From an uncultured bacterium (GTDB lineage: Bacteria; Bacillota; Clostridia; Oscillospirales; Acutalibacteraceae), in the NCBI GenBank assembly GCA_949283655.1, contig CASDTH010000003.1, forward strand, positions 1 through 64,000: a DNA stretch of 64,000 bases, given 5' to 3'. Shown in pieces: positions 54,600 through 62,982 of the stretch (the first letter of the stretch is position 1; every line of letters begins with the position of its first letter). The translations under genes were made by a program, and so were the position numbers. The notes beneath the pieces were generated by a model. That model saw only the letters and a list, made by a program, of their open reading frames with translations, did not search any database and was not told the DNA's origin.

Positions 54600-56216
54600 T
54601 TACGATGCTACCGGTTGTTTCTTCCGGCGGCATAGAAGGGCTGCACCGGCAGCGGCCACTGCCGCAAGCAAAGCGGCAGGGAACGCTTCTCCACCCGTTG
54701 CCGGATTCTCAATCGGGCTGGTTTCAGTTTCCTCCTTGGGTGGATTTGTAGGCTCCTGTGTGCCATCGCCCGGTGTGGAGCTGTCGCCCTCTTCCGGACT
54801 GGTTTCTTCCTCCTCGCCGGTGCCAGGCTCGGACGGGGTGGAAGGCTCCTCAGGTTCCGGCTCCTGCGGCGCTAGCAGTTCAATGAGCAGGATTGGCAAC
54901 GCATCCTTTTCGCTCAGCCCATTCAGTACCTGCTCAATGACGGGGAGCGCTTCTTCCGCGCCCTCCATCGAGCCAATCAGCCGCTCAATCTCCGCACGGT
55001 TTCGCGTCAAAACCTCCTGCGCATAGCGTAGCAGCGTTATAAACACGGCGGGCTGATCCGCCTTGACGGATTGCCGGTGGGTATATCCGGCCGCCATGGT
55101 CGGGATGGTCTCCAACTCGCCGAGGGAGGCAAGCAGCGCCCAATCCACTTCCGGCAGTGTCAGTGAAATGCTCTGCCCATCTATTTCAAGATGCTGCAGC
55201 GCACCCTGTGCAAGGCCGAAGAGCCCCTCCAGGCTTAAATAGGGTGCGGTCGCATCCTCCAGGCCGAAGCCGATGGAGCGGCAGACCTCCCGGATTGCCT
55301 GAAATACTGCGTCAGAATCATAGACCAGCTGTGGGAGCTTTTGCGTGAGCATATTGACCGGCGCATCCAAAAACGCATCGATCAACAGAAGCAGGGGAGC
55401 GAGCGCAAGCTTCAGGTAGGCGTCGTGGTGTCCGGTGGCGTCAATTGCCTGCTGCGCCTGCTCCGTATAGGCGGCGCTGGTGGGCGCATCCGTAATCCCA
55501 AGTGCTTCATAGATAGGGATGAAAAGCTTCTCATAGAGCCCATAGTGCACAACTCCTTCGTCATCCGTTGTGTTCGCAAAGGAAATGTCAATGCCGATCA
55601 GGCTCAGAATGGGGGAGCCTAAAAGCAAGTTCGTCACAGGGCGTAATCCCGCGATGACGGTATCCACAAAGCCCTCCAAATCTCCGTTTGAAAAGCCCCA
55701 GTTAACCGTAGAGAGTTCCGCTGTCTGCCAGGTCAGCCCCGTTGCGGCAAGCGCTTGCTTAGCATTGGTATATTGCTCCTCCGTCAGGTGGGCGGCAACG
55801 TTCGCCGGGGTTAGCTGATTTTTGATTGCCTGGCTCAGGCTGGGCTGGCTGGAGAGTGCCTGATCCAGCAGCGATTCCAGCTCGATATAGAGGGCGGCGA
55901 TGGCCTGCCCGGCCATTTCGTTGGTTGCAAATTGGCCTTTGACAGCATTTTTGAGGCTGCCGGCCTGCTCTACTTCCGGCAGTAAAAGCTTCAGGATTTC
56001 AAGCAGGGCCGGGTCGCTCTGCTGGAGCGCCTGAAGCGCCTGCTGCTGCGTAATGCCCTCCGGGTAAGAGATCGCACCCGGCGTAAAGGGCTTGGCGAGC
56101 GGTTTCACATTGGCTTCCCCGGATCCGGCGGCGGATGCCGCCAGCGCAAACGAAGCCGTAGAAAACGCCAGCATGAGTGACAGCACAATTGCAAGCAGTT
56201 TATGAATGATTCGCAA
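54600..56216 (-). CDS. Sortase-anchored surface protein ending NPATG
   Basis: 538 residues. Signal peptide at 1-26 (M-R-I-I-H-K, hydrophobic core, A-L-A-A). The body (~30-440) is helical, low in Cys, and has no domain I recognise. A Glu/Pro/Thr/Ser-rich wall-spanning linker (~440-500) leads to N-P-A-T-G near 507, then a hydrophobic helix and R-R-K-K: a cell-wall sorting signal, with Asn instead of the Leu of LPxTG. Sortase-type cleavage between Thr and Gly would anchor it. No sortase gene in the window. RBS GGAGG 8 bases before the ATG. Confidence 0.8.
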   Translation of the reverse strand: MRIIHKLLAIVLSLMLAFSTASFALAASAAGSGEANVKPLAKPFTPGAISYPEGITQQQALQALQQSDPALLEILKLLLPEVEQAGSLKNAVKGQFATNEMAGQAIAALYIELESLLDQALSSQPSLSQAIKNQLTPANVAAHLTEEQYTNAKQALAATGLTWQTAELSTVNWGFSNGDLEGFVDTVIAGLRPVTNLLLGSPILSLIGIDISFANTTDDEGVVHYGLYEKLFIPIYEALGITDAPTSAAYTEQAQQAIDATGHHDAYLKLALAPLLLLIDAFLDAPVNMLTQKLPQLVYDSDAVFQAIREVCRSIGFGLEDATAPYLSLEGLFGLAQGALQHLEIDGQSISLTLPEVDWALLASLGELETIPTMAAGYTHRQSVKADQPAVFITLLRYAQEVLTRNRAEIERLIGSMEGAEEALPVIEQVLNGLSEKDALPILLIELLAPQEPEPEEPSTPSEPGTGEEEETSPEEGDSSTPGDGTQEPTNPPKEETETSPIENPATGGEAFPAALLAAVAAAGAALLCRRKKQPVAS

Positions 56217-56607
56217 ATTGGTTCCTCCTGTATTGAAATGATAAATGCTTCTGTCAAAAATAAATCATGTCGTGGTGGAAAGCCTCCCTTCTGATGCAAC
56301 AATTATGATCCGCCGCGTAAGCGTCGGATTACGTCTTTATGCTATCATATCTGTATAATAAGGTCAAACAAATCACGAAATGTTTTCAAAATATTTATGA
56401 TATTGGAAAAATATTTATAATGAATCGAAAAGAAGCAAAAAGGAGAGCCGTTTAGAAGAATTTATCGTAATTTTACATAGCTCATGGGCTGGAATACTTG
56501 CATTGTGGTTTTTGCAAGTGTATAATTATATTGTTTGTACCCTGTATGCTTGGCGCTCAGATGGTCGCGCTGCAATCGCATTTTCAAGAATATTGGGAGG
56601 GCTTACA
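56217..56607. other. Leader region upstream of the synthetase gene
   Basis: About 390 AT-rich bases between the divergent surface protein gene and the synthetase. It holds the promoter at 56498-56526 giving a ~75-base leader. No T-box (G-G-T-G-G-N-A-C-C-G-C-G type) sequence was found, unlike many Clostridial aminoacyl-tRNA synthetase genes. Confidence 0.65.
56498..56526 (+). promoter_or_regulatory. SigA-type promoter of the synthetase gene
   Basis: TTGCAT (56498-56503), 17-base spacer, TATAAT (56521-56526). It excludes starts upstream of about 56533. Confidence 0.75.
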
Positions 56608-59600
56608 TTGGCAGAGTCAGAAAAAAACAGCTTTGTTGAGCTGGAGCACGACGTGATGCGGTTTTGGGAGGAAAACGACTGCTTTCACAAACTGCGTGAA
56701 AAAAACCGCGGGCATGAAATGTTCCGCTTTTTAGACGGCCCGATCACCGCGAATAACCCTATGGGGATCCACCATGCCTGGGGGCGCACGCTGAAGGATA
56801 CGTTTATCCGTTATAAGGGGATGCGCGGTTACGATTGCCGTTATCAAAACGGCTTTGACGCACAGGGCCTCTGGGTGGAGGTCGAGGTAGAAAAGGAGCT
56901 CGGCTTCCAGACCAAAAAGGATATCGAGGCCTACGGGATGGATCAGTTCACCCATAAATGCGTGGAGCGCGTGAAAAAATTCTCTGGCATTATCACAGAG
57001 CAATCCAAGCGGTTGGGGCAGTGGATGGATTGGGAGAACTCTTACTTCACCCACACCGATCAAAACATCGGCGGCATCTGGCACTTCTTAAAGACCTGCC
57101 ATGAAAATGGCTGGATTGAGCGGGAATATAAGCCGATGCCTTGGTGCCCGCGCTGCGGCACCTCGCTTTCCGAGCATGAGATGACCGGCTCCTATAAGCT
57201 GATGAAGCATAAATCCGTTTTCTTCAAGCTGCCGGTTGTGGGTCGCGATTTCAAGATGCTTGCCTGGACGACAACGCCCTGGACGCTCTCAGCCAACGTA
57301 GCCCTGGCCGTTAATCCAGACATTGACTATGTGGAAGTAAAGGTCAAAAGTGACGAGCAGCCGCTTGTGCTTGCGAAAAACGCGATCAAATATCTGGGCG
57401 AGGATAAGGTTGAAGTGCTGCGTGCCTTCAAGGGTGAGGAGCTGGTAGGCCTTCAGTTTGAAACCTGCTTCCCTGAGTTTGAGGCACAGCAGGGCGTGGC
57501 ACATGATGTCGTTGCGTGGGAGGATGTCGCAGCTGATGAGGGCACCGGTATCGTTCATATCGCGCCGGGCTGCGGCGTGGAGGACTTTGAGCTTGGCCTG
57601 CGGCTTGGTCTTGCGCAGATTATGCCCGTGGATGATATGGGCATCTTTCTGGAGAAATTCGGCTGGATGACGGGCAAAAACAGCCATGACGTTGCTGATG
57701 AGGTGTTTGAGCACCTCAAGCAGGCCGGCAAGCTATATCAAGTGATGGAGTATGAGCACAGCTACCCCGTCTGCTGGCGCTGCAAATCCGAGGTCATTTT
57801 CCGATTGGTGCCTGCCTGGTATATCCGCACGGAGGAGCTCAAGCCCCGCCTGATTGCAGCTGCTCAAAAGGTGAAGTGGGAGCCCGCCTCCAACGGCAAG
57901 CGGATGCAGGATTGGCTTAACAATATGGGCGATTGGAACATCTCCCGTAAGCGTTATTACGGGATGCCGCTCCCGTTTTATCCCTGTGAGCACTGCGGCC
58001 ATCTGACAGTGATCGGCTCCAAGGCCGAATTGCGGGCCATGAGTACCGACCCGTCGGCGGTAGACGCGCTGCCGGAGTTGCATAGGCCCTGGATTGACGG
58101 CATTCAAATTAAATGCCCGGAGTGCGGCCATGAGGTTGCTCGCATCAGTGAAATTGGCGATGTGTGGCTGGATGCCGGTATCGTTCCGTTCTCCACGCTG
58201 GGCTATTTTGAAGATAAAGAGGCATGGCGCAGGAATTACCCGGCAGAGTGGATCACAGAAATGCGTGAGCAGGTGCGGCTGTGGTTCTATTCTATGCTCT
58301 TTATGAGTGTTGTGCTGGAGGATCGCGCGCCCTATGAGCGCGTACTCTCCTATAACACCGTCGTTGCGGAGGATGGCTCCAAATTCTCCAAGACCGGCTT
58401 TATGATCAAATTTGACGAGGCGGCGGAAAAGATCGGCGCCGATACAATCCGTTATATGTATGCCGGCGCACCGGTGGCCAATGATGTGCGTTTCGGCTAC
58501 AACTTGGGCGATGAAGCGCGCCGTAAGCTGCTCTCCTTCTGGAATATTTTTACGTTTTTCAACACCTATGCGCAGATCGATCATCCTGTGTTGGAAGGGT
58601 ATACGCCCGATTTCAGTCAGCTGACGCCTACAGACCGCTGGCTTGTGCTGCGCACAAATGAGTTCATTCAGCGGGCAACCGAGGTGATGGATGATTATAA
58701 AACCTATCTGCTCGTCAAGGAGTTTGAAATCTTTGTAGACGATATTTCCAACTGGTATATTCGCACCAACCGCCGCCGCTTCTGGAAAACGGAGGACGAG
58801 GCGGATAAGATGGTGGCCTATTGGACGCTGTTTTACGCACTGAACACCTGTGTGCAGGTGATGTCTCCCATTATTCCGTTCATGACGGAGCATATCTGGC
58901 AGGATCTCACCCGTAAGGTGTTGCCAAATGCGCCCATCAGTGTGCATCTGAGCGACTGGCCGCAGCCGGTCGAGGGTATTGTAGATGATGGAGTTATAGA
59001 GCAAACACAGCGTGCTCGCACCGTTATCGCCACGGCGATGCGATTGCGCAACGAGCAGCAGCTCAAGGTTCGCCAGCCGCTGCAAAAGCTGTATGTCTGC
59101 TGCGGTGAGGCAGAGGCAGAGCAGATTCGTGTGTTCGAGCGCAATGTACTGGATGAGCTTAATGTCAAGGAACTTGTCTATATTCAGGATTTCAACGTGC
59201 TGGAGGATGCGTATCTGGGTGTAAACTTCAAAGCTGCCGGCGCTGTGCTCAAACAAAACGTCAACAAAATGAAGCAGACGTTGGAAACCGCCTCCGCTGA
59301 AGAGATGCAGGCTATGGTAGCTGCCTTTGATGCAGGCGAAAAGATTGCCGTACCGGGTTGGGACGGGGCGTTTGATCCTTCTCTCTTCCTGCGCCAGGCA
59401 AAGACCAAGGCGGGCATCGTCTCCGCTGAGTGTGGCGAGGGCATGGTAATCGCTTTGGATACCGTTTTGACCGATGCCCTGCGCGCAGAGGGTGCCGTGC
59501 GCGATATCATCCGCCAGTGTCAGCTGCTGCGCAAGGAAGCAGGTTATCAGGTGGAGCAGCACATCAAGGCTTCCATTGTGACGGGCAGCGCATTCCTTGC

Positions 59601-59742
59601 CAGCGCTTTGGATGCGCAAAAAGCGCATATCGCCGCCGAGTTGCTTGCGGATGAACTCACTTTTGCGTCGTTAGAAGCGCATGACCTGGCAAAGAGCATC
59701 ACCGTCGGTGAGGATACAGTGACGATTGCCGTGCAAAAATAG
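56608..59742 (+). CDS. Divergent class I aminoacyl-tRNA synthetase (IleRS-like)
   Basis: 1044 residues from TTG 56608 (GGGAGGG about 6 bases upstream). The HIGH position reads G-I-H-H-A-W-G (H55-H56-A57-W58) and the KMSKS position K-F-S-K-T (592-596). Editing-domain-like W-T-T-T-P-W-T-L near 220 and zinc-type C-P-R-C (~175), C-E-H-C and C-P-E-C pairs are present. The C-terminal anticodon-binding region has R-T-N-R-R-R-F-W (~715). Architecture and length fit IleRS. The signatures are far from the usual H-I-G-H and K-M-S-K-S. The amino acid is not proven. The gene has its own SigA-type promoter and no T-box. Confidence 0.8.
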   Translation: MAESEKNSFVELEHDVMRFWEENDCFHKLREKNRGHEMFRFLDGPITANNPMGIHHAWGRTLKDTFIRYKGMRGYDCRYQNGFDAQGLWVEVEVEKELGFQTKKDIEAYGMDQFTHKCVERVKKFSGIITEQSKRLGQWMDWENSYFTHTDQNIGGIWHFLKTCHENGWIEREYKPMPWCPRCGTSLSEHEMTGSYKLMKHKSVFFKLPVVGRDFKMLAWTTTPWTLSANVALAVNPDIDYVEVKVKSDEQPLVLAKNAIKYLGEDKVEVLRAFKGEELVGLQFETCFPEFEAQQGVAHDVVAWEDVAADEGTGIVHIAPGCGVEDFELGLRLGLAQIMPVDDMGIFLEKFGWMTGKNSHDVADEVFEHLKQAGKLYQVMEYEHSYPVCWRCKSEVIFRLVPAWYIRTEELKPRLIAAAQKVKWEPASNGKRMQDWLNNMGDWNISRKRYYGMPLPFYPCEHCGHLTVIGSKAELRAMSTDPSAVDALPELHRPWIDGIQIKCPECGHEVARISEIGDVWLDAGIVPFSTLGYFEDKEAWRRNYPAEWITEMREQVRLWFYSMLFMSVVLEDRAPYERVLSYNTVVAEDGSKFSKTGFMIKFDEAAEKIGADTIRYMYAGAPVANDVRFGYNLGDEARRKLLSFWNIFTFFNTYAQIDHPVLEGYTPDFSQLTPTDRWLVLRTNEFIQRATEVMDDYKTYLLVKEFEIFVDDISNWYIRTNRRRFWKTEDEADKMVAYWTLFYALNTCVQVMSPIIPFMTEHIWQDLTRKVLPNAPISVHLSDWPQPVEGIVDDGVIEQTQRARTVIATAMRLRNEQQLKVRQPLQKLYVCCGEAEAEQIRVFERNVLDELNVKELVYIQDFNVLEDAYLGVNFKAAGAVLKQNVNKMKQTLETASAEEMQAMVAAFDAGEKIAVPGWDGAFDPSLFLRQAKTKAGIVSAECGEGMVIALDTVLTDALRAEGAVRDIIRQCQLLRKEAGYQVEQHIKASIVTGSAFLASALDAQKAHIAAELLADELTFASLEAHDLAKSITVGEDTVTIAVQK

Positions 59743-59857: not shown

Positions 59858-60946
59858 TTATAACCAGGCTTGGCCCTCTTCCAGCTCTGCGGTGAAAATA
59901 CGGCTGTTATTTTGGGGATCCTTCGCCTGATGATATTTGAAGAGCATTTCTCTCTCGTTGAGCATACCAAGGATCTCGATTTTACCCGTTTCATGCGACA
60001 TAGCATAACGGATGCGTTTGCTGAAGCCATTGCACTTTGCTTTTGCCTGATCTACGATTTTCACGCCCTCTGCAAGCGGCACTTGGAACTGTGTTTTTAC
60101 ATGGGTGACGGGCCTGCATTGGAAGATATAGTAAGGAATCACCCGGTTGCGAATCAAGGCGTTGAACAGGTTTGCAAGCGTATCCGAATCATCGTTAACA
60201 CCGCGCAGCAGAACCGTTTGGTTATTGACAATGACACCCGCAGAGAGCAATGCGTTGATAGAAGCGACCGCTTCCGGCGTCAGCTCTTTTGCGTGGTTAA
60301 ACTGGGTCGTGACATAAATCGTTTTTTTTGCGCCGTATTCCCGCAAAATATCGATCAACTCCGAATCCCCTGTGATCCGAGAGGGGAGCGTAACCGGAAT
60401 CCGCGTGCCAAAACGGATGAAATCCAAATGCTCAATTCCACAAAGCTCTTGCAGATAATAGGAGATCACGCTGTTGCTATTGAGAAAAGCGTCCCCTCCC
60501 GAGATTAGCACATTATTGATCTCTTTATGTTCCTTAATATAGGTGAGGATAGGGGCAAAGGTTTTGGCAACTTCCTCATCCGAGGTGCCAACCAGCCGCT
60601 TGCGAAAGCAATGGCGGCAATACATTGCGCACTTACTGGTGGAGAGGATGAGCGTTGTCTGCGCATATTTATGCTGCAAGCCCTCCGTTTTGGTATTGCT
60701 GGCCTCACCGCTGGTATCCCACACGCCAGCGTCATCCAGCTCCTCCAACGCAGGTAAGCTCATTTTACGGATTGGATCGTTAGGATCGTTTGGGTCGATT
60801 AGAGATAGGTAGTAACGGGGGATAGACATCGGGAATTCTTTAACGATGGCGTTTAATTTTGCAATCTCAGAGCTTTCGAGGGGGATGTATTTTGCAAGCT
60901 CCTCGATGGATGTTACATTGTTTTTTAATTCTTCTTGCCAGCGCAT
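59858..60946 (-). CDS. KamA-family radical-SAM protein (lysine 2,3-aminomutase-like)
   Basis: 362 residues from ATG 60946 (AAGGAGG about 5 bases upstream). Radical-SAM cysteines C106-x3-C110-x2-C113 (C-A-M-Y-C-R-H-C). Also V-L-I-S-G-G-D-A-F and R-I-P-V-T-L-P-S-R-I. It is shorter than Clostridium lysine 2,3-aminomutase (416). The PLP-lysine P-G-G-G-G-K motif is missing; S-H-E-T-G-K-I-E (K322) occupies that region. Without the classic motif the substrate, amine migration or other, is uncertain. Divergent from scfA, with ~395 bases between. Confidence 0.82.
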   Translation of the reverse strand: MRWQEELKNNVTSIEELAKYIPLESSEIAKLNAIVKEFPMSIPRYYLSLIDPNDPNDPIRKMSLPALEELDDAGVWDTSGEASNTKTEGLQHKYAQTTLILSTSKCAMYCRHCFRKRLVGTSDEEVAKTFAPILTYIKEHKEINNVLISGGDAFLNSNSVISYYLQELCGIEHLDFIRFGTRIPVTLPSRITGDSELIDILREYGAKKTIYVTTQFNHAKELTPEAVASINALLSAGVIVNNQTVLLRGVNDDSDTLANLFNALIRNRVIPYYIFQCRPVTHVKTQFQVPLAEGVKIVDQAKAKCNGFSKRIRYAMSHETGKIEILGMLNEREMLFKYHQAKDPQNNSRIFTAELEEGQAWL

Positions 60947-61133
60947 GGTTTCCTCCTTGGTGGTTTTCACCGAAATATTAATTATAATAATAGCATATTT
61001 CTGTAAGTTTTTTATGAATAAATAAAATTATATTCCATTTAAGAATTGATTTTTTATTGAAATTTTGTTTTAGAATTTACACAATAATTCGAATTTCGAC
61101 ATAAATAATACAAAAAGAGTACAGGTTAACATG

Positions 61134-61541: not shown

Positions 61542-61602
61542 CGTATAAATCAAAAATCTCATAAGCGCCGTGTTTTGGAAGGCGGAAAGGATTACTCGGA
61601 AC

Positions 61603-62982
61603 ATGATTCACAAATTTTATTTAAACGGGTTTTATATTGTGCTGGATGTCAATAGCGGCGCAGTGCATGTGGTGGATCAGCTCTCTTATGAGTTGCTGGA
61701 CGGATTGAAAGCGCCCTTGTCCGATCGATGCCCTGAGGAAGTGGCAGAGCGCCTGCGCGCCGCCTACAGCGAGGTGGAGATTCAAGAGGCATACGCAGAG
61801 CTTTATGAGCTCTATCAAAATGGGTTTCTCTTCTCCGCAGATGATTATGCTCCTTTTGCCGAGCAGATGGGGCCGGCGCCGGTGAAATCCATGTGCTTAA
61901 ATATTGCGCACGATTGCAACTTGCGCTGCAGCTATTGCTTTGCCGCACAGGGAGATTTTGGGCACGGCCGCAAGCTGATGCCTTTTGAGGTGGGCAAGGC
62001 GGCAATTGATTTTTTAATCGCGCATTCTGCCAACCGGCATAACTTGGAGCTGGATTTCTTTGGCGGAGAGCCATTGATGAACTTCGATGTGGTTAAGCAA
62101 GTGGTGGATTACGCCCGTTCAATCGAAAAGGCACACAACAAAAATTTCCGCTTTACCATCACGACCAATGGTCTTCTCTTGACAGAGGACAAAATCGATT
62201 ATATCAATCGGGAGATGTCAAACGTCGTTTTATCTATCGACGGCCGAAAAGAGATCAACGATTCCCTGCGCTTTCGCGTGGATGGCAGCGGCAGCTATGA
62301 TGCGATCGTTCCCCAATATCAGCATTTGGTAGAAAAACGGCGCGGCGGAAAATTCGATCAATATTATGTTCGCGGCACATTTACAAAGCGAAACCTTGAT
62401 TTTACAAAAGACGTTGTCCATATGCGAGAGCTGGGGTTTGACCAGATTTCGATCGAGCCCGTGGTGGCCGATCCGAATTTGCTGCCTGTTGCCCTGACAG
62501 AAGAGGATCTGCAGCGCATCTGTGAGGAATATGAAACACTCGCAAAAGAAATTATCCGCAGAAAAAGGGGAGGGGACAGCTTCAATTTCTTCCACTTTAT
62601 GCTAGATCTTGATCAAGGTCCCTGCGCGATCAAGCGGCTGCGCGGTTGTAGCTGTGGGAATGAATACATCGCTGTAACGCCCGAGGGCGATATCTATCCA
62701 TGCCACCAATTCGTTGGTATGGAGGAGTGGAAGATGGGCAGTGTTTTGGATGGCAGCCTGGATCAAACCAAGAAGCAGATGTTTTCAAAGACCAATGTTT
62801 ATGAAAAGCCGGAATGCCGGAACTGTTGGGCCAAATTTTATTGTAGCGGTGGTTGCAATGCAAATAACCTGCAATATGCCGGAGACATTTTAAAACCACA
62901 CCAGCTTTCCTGCGCTTTGGAAAAAAAGCGATTGGAATGTGCGATTATGATAAAGGCCGCATTGGCCAGCAACGCCGAGTAA
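61603..62982 (+). CDS. scfB: SCIFF radical-SAM maturase (thioether-forming, SPASM)
   Basis: 459 residues from ATG 61603 (GGAAAGGA about 13 bases upstream). N-terminal ~90 residues resemble the RiPP recognition element. Radical-SAM cluster C105-x3-C109-x2-C112 (C-N-L-R-C-S-Y-C), F-F-G-G-E-P near 150 and T-T-N-G-L-L-L. The SPASM region has G-C-S-C-G-N near residue 349, G-D-I-Y-P-C-H-Q, C-R-N-C-W-A-K-F-Y-C-S-G-G-C-N and a last C in L-S-C-A-L-E. It corresponds to CteB/ScfB, which forms Cys thioether crosslinks in the SCIFF peptide. Confidence 0.95.
   Translation: MIHKFYLNGFYIVLDVNSGAVHVVDQLSYELLDGLKAPLSDRCPEEVAERLRAAYSEVEIQEAYAELYELYQNGFLFSADDYAPFAEQMGPAPVKSMCLNIAHDCNLRCSYCFAAQGDFGHGRKLMPFEVGKAAIDFLIAHSANRHNLELDFFGGEPLMNFDVVKQVVDYARSIEKAHNKNFRFTITTNGLLLTEDKIDYINREMSNVVLSIDGRKEINDSLRFRVDGSGSYDAIVPQYQHLVEKRRGGKFDQYYVRGTFTKRNLDFTKDVVHMRELGFDQISIEPVVADPNLLPVALTEEDLQRICEEYETLAKEIIRRKRGGDSFNFFHFMLDLDQGPCAIKRLRGCSCGNEYIAVTPEGDIYPCHQFVGMEEWKMGSVLDGSLDQTKKQMFSKTNVYEKPECRNCWAKFYCSGGCNANNLQYAGDILKPHQLSCALEKKRLECAIMIKAALASNAE

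Follow-up and report, generated by a model that had tools for sequence, protein, structure and literature searches.

A type 2 isoleucyl-tRNA synthetase with a GIHH signature motif, predicted to be hyper-resistant to mupirocin, is the only IleRS found in an Oscillospiraceae-like genome

The window, that is, the whole 64,000-nucleotide stretch of DNA that we analyzed, lies in a 192-kb contig (C3) of an Oscillospiraceae-like draft genome (2.59 Mb in 50 contigs, 99.35% complete). On its + strand, an open reading frame at 56608-59742 begins with TTG at 56608, which is presumably the start codon, ends with a stop codon at 59742, and encodes 1,044 amino acids. The features of this gene are:

56521..56526, + strand: TATAAT, a possible -10 element with no good -35 partner; it lies outside the sites that passed the promoter scan
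56595..56601, + strand: GGGAGGG, a likely ribosome-binding site judging by the sequence, 6 nt before the TTG start
56608..59742, + strand: ileS, type 2 IleRS, 1,044 amino acids, the sole IleRS found in the genome (the only match over the cut-off of TIGR00392)
56764..56775, + strand: codons of G53-I-H-H56, the class I signature in its swapped form (GXHH for HXGH), from the gapless alignment with Priestia megaterium IleRS2 (PmIleRS2; 8c8v/8c8w)
56851..56874, + strand: codons of G82-F-D-A-Q-G-L-W89 (canonical GWDTHGLP), from the clade alignment
57145..57156, + strand: cysteine pair C180/C183, from the clade alignment
57265..57282, + strand: WTTTPW of the CP1 editing domain (W220-T-T-T-P-W225)
57772..57783, + strand: cysteine pair C389/C392, from the clade alignment
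57985..57996, + strand: cysteine pair C460/C463, from the clade alignment
58114..58125, + strand: cysteine pair C503/C506, from the clade alignment
58381..58395, + strand: codons of K592-F-S-K-T596, the KMSKS equivalent; the loop behind it is one residue shorter than the canonical loop
59143..59739, + strand: C-terminal domain, PF19302 (DUF5915), 91.7 bits

The neighbors of ileS include no obvious operon partner and offer no resistance context, and the base composition of the gene is like that of the window. On the - strand, 54600-56216 encodes an uncharacterized secreted-type protein of 538 amino acids with, by eye, a signal-like N-terminus and a sorting-signal-like C-terminus (NPATGG); it has no match in NCBIfam. 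Also on the - strand, 59858-60970 encodes a KamA-family radical SAM protein that scores over the subfamily cut-off and far under the cut-offs for lysine, glutamate, and arginine 2,3-aminomutases. A SCIFF thioether peptide maturase is encoded at 61570-62982 on the + strand (TIGR03974, 707.5 bits; cut-off, 425).

The original prediction, which was made from the DNA alone, gave ileS a consensus-like promoter without a T-box. The TATAAT at 56521-56526 is perfect, but no hexamer pair there passed our promoter scan, and the number of matches in the region (5) was near that for shuffled sequences (mean, 3.6; standard deviation, 1.9). The sole + strand match upstream of ileS is at 56233 (9 of 12). As for the T-box, there is indeed none in the window, but we also found none at any of the 46 ileS-bearing loci that we tested (20 IleRS1 or IleRS2 loci of relatives and 26 loci of the GXHH/KFSKT clade described below), so its absence carries no weight.

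Judging by its sequence, the product is a complete type 2 isoleucyl-tRNA synthetase (IleRS2). The protein scores 740.3 bits against the NCBIfam equivalog model for ileS (TIGR00392), whose curated cut-off is 621.4 bits, and its Pfam domains are tRNA-synt_1, Anticodon_1, and DUF5915. An AlphaFold2 model built with 32 clade sequences has the IleRS fold along its whole length (mean pLDDT, 88.2; pTM, 0.78), with a pLDDT of about 70 in the block containing the loop of KFSKT. The best Foldseek matches of the model are structures of PmIleRS2 (TM, 0.80), and in VIA-align it scores highest against yeast IleRS and PmIleRS2 (Z, 38.7-39.9). With the canonical HXGH IleRS2 of P. megaterium (8c8u/8c8v) and Thermus thermophilus (1ile), the protein shares the domain order, the zinc cysteines, and the editing domain; the C-terminal domain is also present in the P. 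megaterium enzyme. IleRS1 (the Escherichia coli type) catalyzes the same reaction with the same class I core and editing domain, but it is only about 30% identical and belongs to a separate clade (SH-aLRT, 99-100). In our trees, the protein groups with IleRS2 and away from IleRS1.

What sets the protein apart from canonical IleRS2 is the signature motif: HXGH is absent, and G53-I54-H55-H56 stands in its place. In phmmer alignments, these residues are gaplessly opposite HVGH of PmIleRS2 (8c8v, 8c9d) and opposite GVHH of an engineered PmIleRS2 mutant (8c8w), which is also the top-scoring PDB sequence (605.6 bits). The protein therefore has the G/A-X-H-H form of the motif that defines GXHH-type IleRS2, such as those of Streptomyces griseus and Deinococcus radiodurans: type 2 enzymes, like the 8c8w mutant, in which residues 1 and 3 of HXGH are swapped. 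The original prediction placed the replacement of HIGH two residues too late (H55-H56-A57-W58). It also described KMSKS as strongly altered, to K592-F-S-K-T596; the change is real, but this is a conservative variant in which both lysines are kept. The loop reads KFSKT-GFMI, versus KMSKS-KGNxV in canonical enzymes.

To describe the variation in the clade, we used an alignment of 85 rows without the loci that repeat one genome (L001, L037, L008, and L010-L012). Four of the 85 rows fall short of the GXHH site; among the 81 that cover it, 80 have GXHH and one has KIHH. KFSKT is present in 73 of the 85 rows, and the others have RFSKT, KFSKS, RFHKS, RFSKS, or QFHKN. Because the signature motifs recur among relatives down to 52% identity, they are not due to chance. 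Other core motifs differ as well: 81 of the 82 complete rows have GFDxQGLW, the remaining one having GFDAHGLP, and YYG or FYG (canonical YWG) and EQVRLWF or EQIRLWF (canonical DQTRGWF) are found in all 85. In contrast, all 33 sampled rows of canonical IleRS2 have HXGH, GWDTHGLP, YWG, and DQTRGWF. Four other rows with GXHH (from Nonomuraea, Rhodococcus, Acetoanaerobium, and one more) are also unlike the clade: they have GWDTHGLP or, in two cases, GWDCHGLP, together with YWG, DQTRGWF, and KMSKS or KMSKH.

The residues expected to matter for zinc binding, isoleucine recognition, and editing are kept. The four cysteine pairs show little or no variation across the clade, and both they and the W-T-T-T-P-W segment are present as originally predicted. 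We take P45, D84, W520, Q555, and W559 to be isoleucine-binding residues and T221-T223, H317, and D326 to be editing residues, with the correspondence to yeast and Thermus numbering counted by hand. W520, Q555, W559, T221-T223, H317, and D326 are identical in all 85 clade rows, and P45 and D84 are kept in every row that covers those sites. As far as this correspondence holds, the isoleucine pocket and the editing site are kept. In yeast IleRS, Trp529 stacks on the isoleucyl group, according to PMC7955072; by count, W520 would be its counterpart. We had first taken the Trp of SRxRYWG, which is Y in the clade, to be the isoleucine-contacting Trp, which would have implied an altered pocket. We rejected this idea because the contacting Trp sits in the D-x-W segment (from PMC7955072 and the count in yeast numbering), which is kept in the clade.

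In two quick trees (69 and 60 rows) from which the motif columns had been removed, the GXHH/KFSKT clade had an SH-aLRT support of 100, and it joined the other IleRS2 with a support of 98-99, apart from IleRS1 and the single archaeal IleRS; these values are SH-aLRT supports from quick searches, without bootstrap. The clade is separate from ordinary IleRS, which agrees with the suggestion of a divergent lineage, and branches as sister to the rest of the sampled IleRS2. However, a long branch (1.2-1.35 changes per site) leads to the clade, whose exact place may reflect long-branch attraction. GXHH appears on three separate branches of these trees.

In the open-access literature on the GXHH motif in IleRS, we found one article (Brkic et al. 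2023, PMC10485003); in the open-access literature that we covered, we came across neither text on KFSKT in IleRS nor kinetic or inhibitor measurements for any member of the GXHH/KFSKT clade. According to Brkic et al., the swapped motif raises the K_i of IleRS2 for mupirocin by about 175- to 820-fold: the K_i of the ALHH enzyme of D. radiodurans (DrIleRS2) is 6600 μM versus 8.1 μM once it is changed to HVGH, that of the T. thermophilus enzyme (TtIleRS2) is 35 μM for the GVHH mutant versus 0.20 μM, and that of PmIleRS2 is 460 μM for the GVHH mutant versus 1.08 μM. In other words, the swap moves the K_i by about two to three orders of magnitude at a moderate catalytic cost, while IleRS1 that is given the swapped motif loses activity. 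The tree of Brkic et al. includes 86 IleRS2 with G/AXHH and 77 with HXGH, and the authors report no IleRS1 with G/AXHH. In the model proposed there, the histidine at the third position clashes with mupirocin. The article also describes a minor clade of IleRS2 (node 747) whose ancestor had GXHH and whose early branch is linked to Planctomycetota and Chloroflexi.

The IleRS in the window has the sequence side of this hyper-resistance, and its K_i for mupirocin is predicted to be in the millimolar range. If the published model applies, then H55 would be tolerated by the shifted active site of IleRS2 and yet would clash with mupirocin. In IleRS1, N70 and F586 also touch mupirocin (same article); by count, their counterparts here would be G59 and T584. 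The shortened KFSKT loop and the other changes in the clade could shift the binding of mupirocin either way. Overall, we consider it very likely that this ileS is a housekeeping gene that encodes a mupirocin-hyper-resistant type 2 IleRS with GIHH, whose lineage carries additional linked changes in the active site. The enzyme would activate isoleucine, charge tRNA-Ile, and edit mischarged tRNA in the ordinary way, its isoleucylation of tRNA-Ile being inferred from its status as the sole copy. The suggestion of a divergent IleRS lineage that is perhaps resistant to mupirocin is thus supported, by the deep separate clade and by a motif that is the published determinant of hyper-resistance in IleRS2 (PMC10485003), with the resistance itself being a prediction. 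Most likely, the mechanism is the one already known, and the lineage is a divergent one that may or may not be the minor clade of node 747. It is less expected that ordinary gut anaerobes should have, as the sole IleRS found in them, a form tied to hyper-resistance, and that the remodeling of class I signature motifs can go, with a set of linked changes, beyond the single published swap.

The original prediction had proposed looking for a second ileS in the genome. When we searched the draft with the protein itself and with TIGR00392, we found none, and the next matches, judged by their motifs and open frames, are ValRS (contig C15), LeuRS (C35), and MetRS (C18); a second ileS could conceivably have been missed in the 50 contigs. 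The named relatives are mostly metagenome-assembled genomes of Oscillospiraceae, Ruminococcaceae, or Clostridia. Among 40 sampled genomes, including this one, 8 have the clade enzyme, 4 have ordinary IleRS2, 26 have IleRS1, and 2 have ValRS-like matches alone; no second IleRS was found in the other 7 carriers in this sample. The clade enzyme is present in 7 of 297 genomes of the order and in 2 of 299 genomes of the phylum, with two candidates scored per genome, so that second copies may escape these counts; one genome of the phylum sample (G598) has both the clade enzyme and a second IleRS. Within a single genus, four genomes have the clade enzyme and two have ordinary IleRS2, with one IleRS each. 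The ileS neighborhoods of a pair from this genus (L178 and L179) differ, which argues for replacement of the gene rather than its conversion in place.

Of 80 loci of the clade, we used 40, from named genomes, to count second copies, and 10 of these 40 carriers also have an IleRS with canonical motifs (L102, L105, L107, L110, L113, L114, L116, L117, L121, and L123). In L107, this second IleRS is a broken frame of 586 amino acids without the HIGH site; in L121, it has HMGT and AMHKS; and L102 and L110 are 4-kb contigs that may be misbinned. Both enzymes are encoded in the complete chromosome of Oceanirhabdus sp. W0125-5, an environmental isolate. The two-IleRS carriers that we placed in the trees all lie within one subclade, along with L108, in whose small genome we found no second IleRS. 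In several deep members of the clade (L112, L119, L120, L122, and L124), the clade enzyme is the only IleRS found. We infer that the enzyme was an accessory copy first and the sole IleRS later; given the sole-copy deep members, the reverse order is equally compatible. Some bacteria thus have the clade enzyme in addition to another IleRS, presumably for protection, and in this genome and its close relatives it is the sole IleRS found.

One second copy is in an unusual setting. In the Margulisbacteria genome GWF2_35_9 (MFRH01000061.1; L176, 13-19001, and L177, 134-9458), the clade enzyme is present as a second IleRS, and its gene belongs to a co-oriented run that also encodes radical SAM proteins, a creatininase, transporter-like open reading frames, and an NRPS adenylation-carrier protein. 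The run also contains an MnmE-like GTPase, just below the cut-off for MnmE, and a second LeuRS, which scores 963 bits (versus 1113 bits for the LeuRS on a different contig). It resembles a natural-product cluster in which targets have been duplicated. A survey of 55 Margulisbacteria genomes found the clade IleRS in just one, the already known carrier.

Tentatively, the clade might represent another IleRS2 that was re-tooled independently: GXHH, the shorter loop after KFSKT, and the changes at several core residues that are normally invariant would have co-evolved as a single inhibitor-proof site. The enzyme would have spread from phylum to phylum as a protective extra IleRS (in one genome with an NRPS gene, a second LeuRS, and an MnmE-like gene nearby), and it would have displaced the housekeeping enzyme in gut Oscillospiraceae. 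We see this as a real possibility with less than even chances. If the accessory copies and the gene-cluster context hold up, then undescribed natural inhibitors of IleRS or LeuRS would be indicated.

Alternatively, this may be an ordinary housekeeping IleRS2 in which neutral co-evolution within the active site led to the fixation of GXHH, unrelated to mupirocin or to any inhibitor. The motif is fixed across a clade of mostly gut anaerobes, whose exposure to mupirocin is undocumented here, and the many linked changes suggest general remodeling over a single drug-resistance swap. On the other hand, PMC10485003 reports at least two origins of GXHH in IleRS2, and the motif is on three separate branches here; also, the copies that coexist with a canonical IleRS suggest a conditional benefit. 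We consider neutral fixation to be rather unlikely. Another proposal, that the protein is an accessory paralog with another substrate or task, might account for the differences at several otherwise conserved residues and for the relatives that occur as second copies, one of them adjoining an NRPS gene and a second LeuRS. But no other IleRS was found in this genome or in the 7 other carriers among the 40 sampled relatives, and the residues for the isoleucine pocket, editing, and zinc binding are all retained, so this part of the original prediction is very improbable. Finally, an acquired resistance gene of the MupA/MupB type would also be a type 2 IleRS, and both models match nearly the full length of the protein, but we give this hardly any credence: the scores (574.9 bits for MupA, NF000257, and 593.7 bits for MupB, NF000258) are far below the 1900-bit cut-offs, the identity to plasmid mupA is about 31.5%, and the gene, present in a single copy, lies on a contig of 192 kb and does not differ from the window in base composition. 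We also rejected a plasmid origin, as the best plasmid matches are about 34% identical.

We also noticed other unusual forms of IleRS. In the same order, IleRS1 often has HXGT, with Thr for the fourth His: this was the case for 11 of 18 aligned IleRS1 (L019, L021, L023, L025, L028-L030, L032-L034, and L036). With a degenerate DNA pattern, HXGT was found in 74 and HXGH in 56 of 197 genomes of the order; a reversed control pattern gave 0 in the listed genomes. Brkic et al. (PMC10485003) state that every IleRS1 in their set has HXGH. Three of the 18 aligned IleRS1 have AMHKS for KMSKS. Two genomes of the order (L172 and L173) contain another divergent type of IleRS2, with HHGT and KLSKS for HXGH and KMSKS, and a genome that is labeled as Micrarchaeota (L160) encodes an IleRS with HPGL at the HIGH position.
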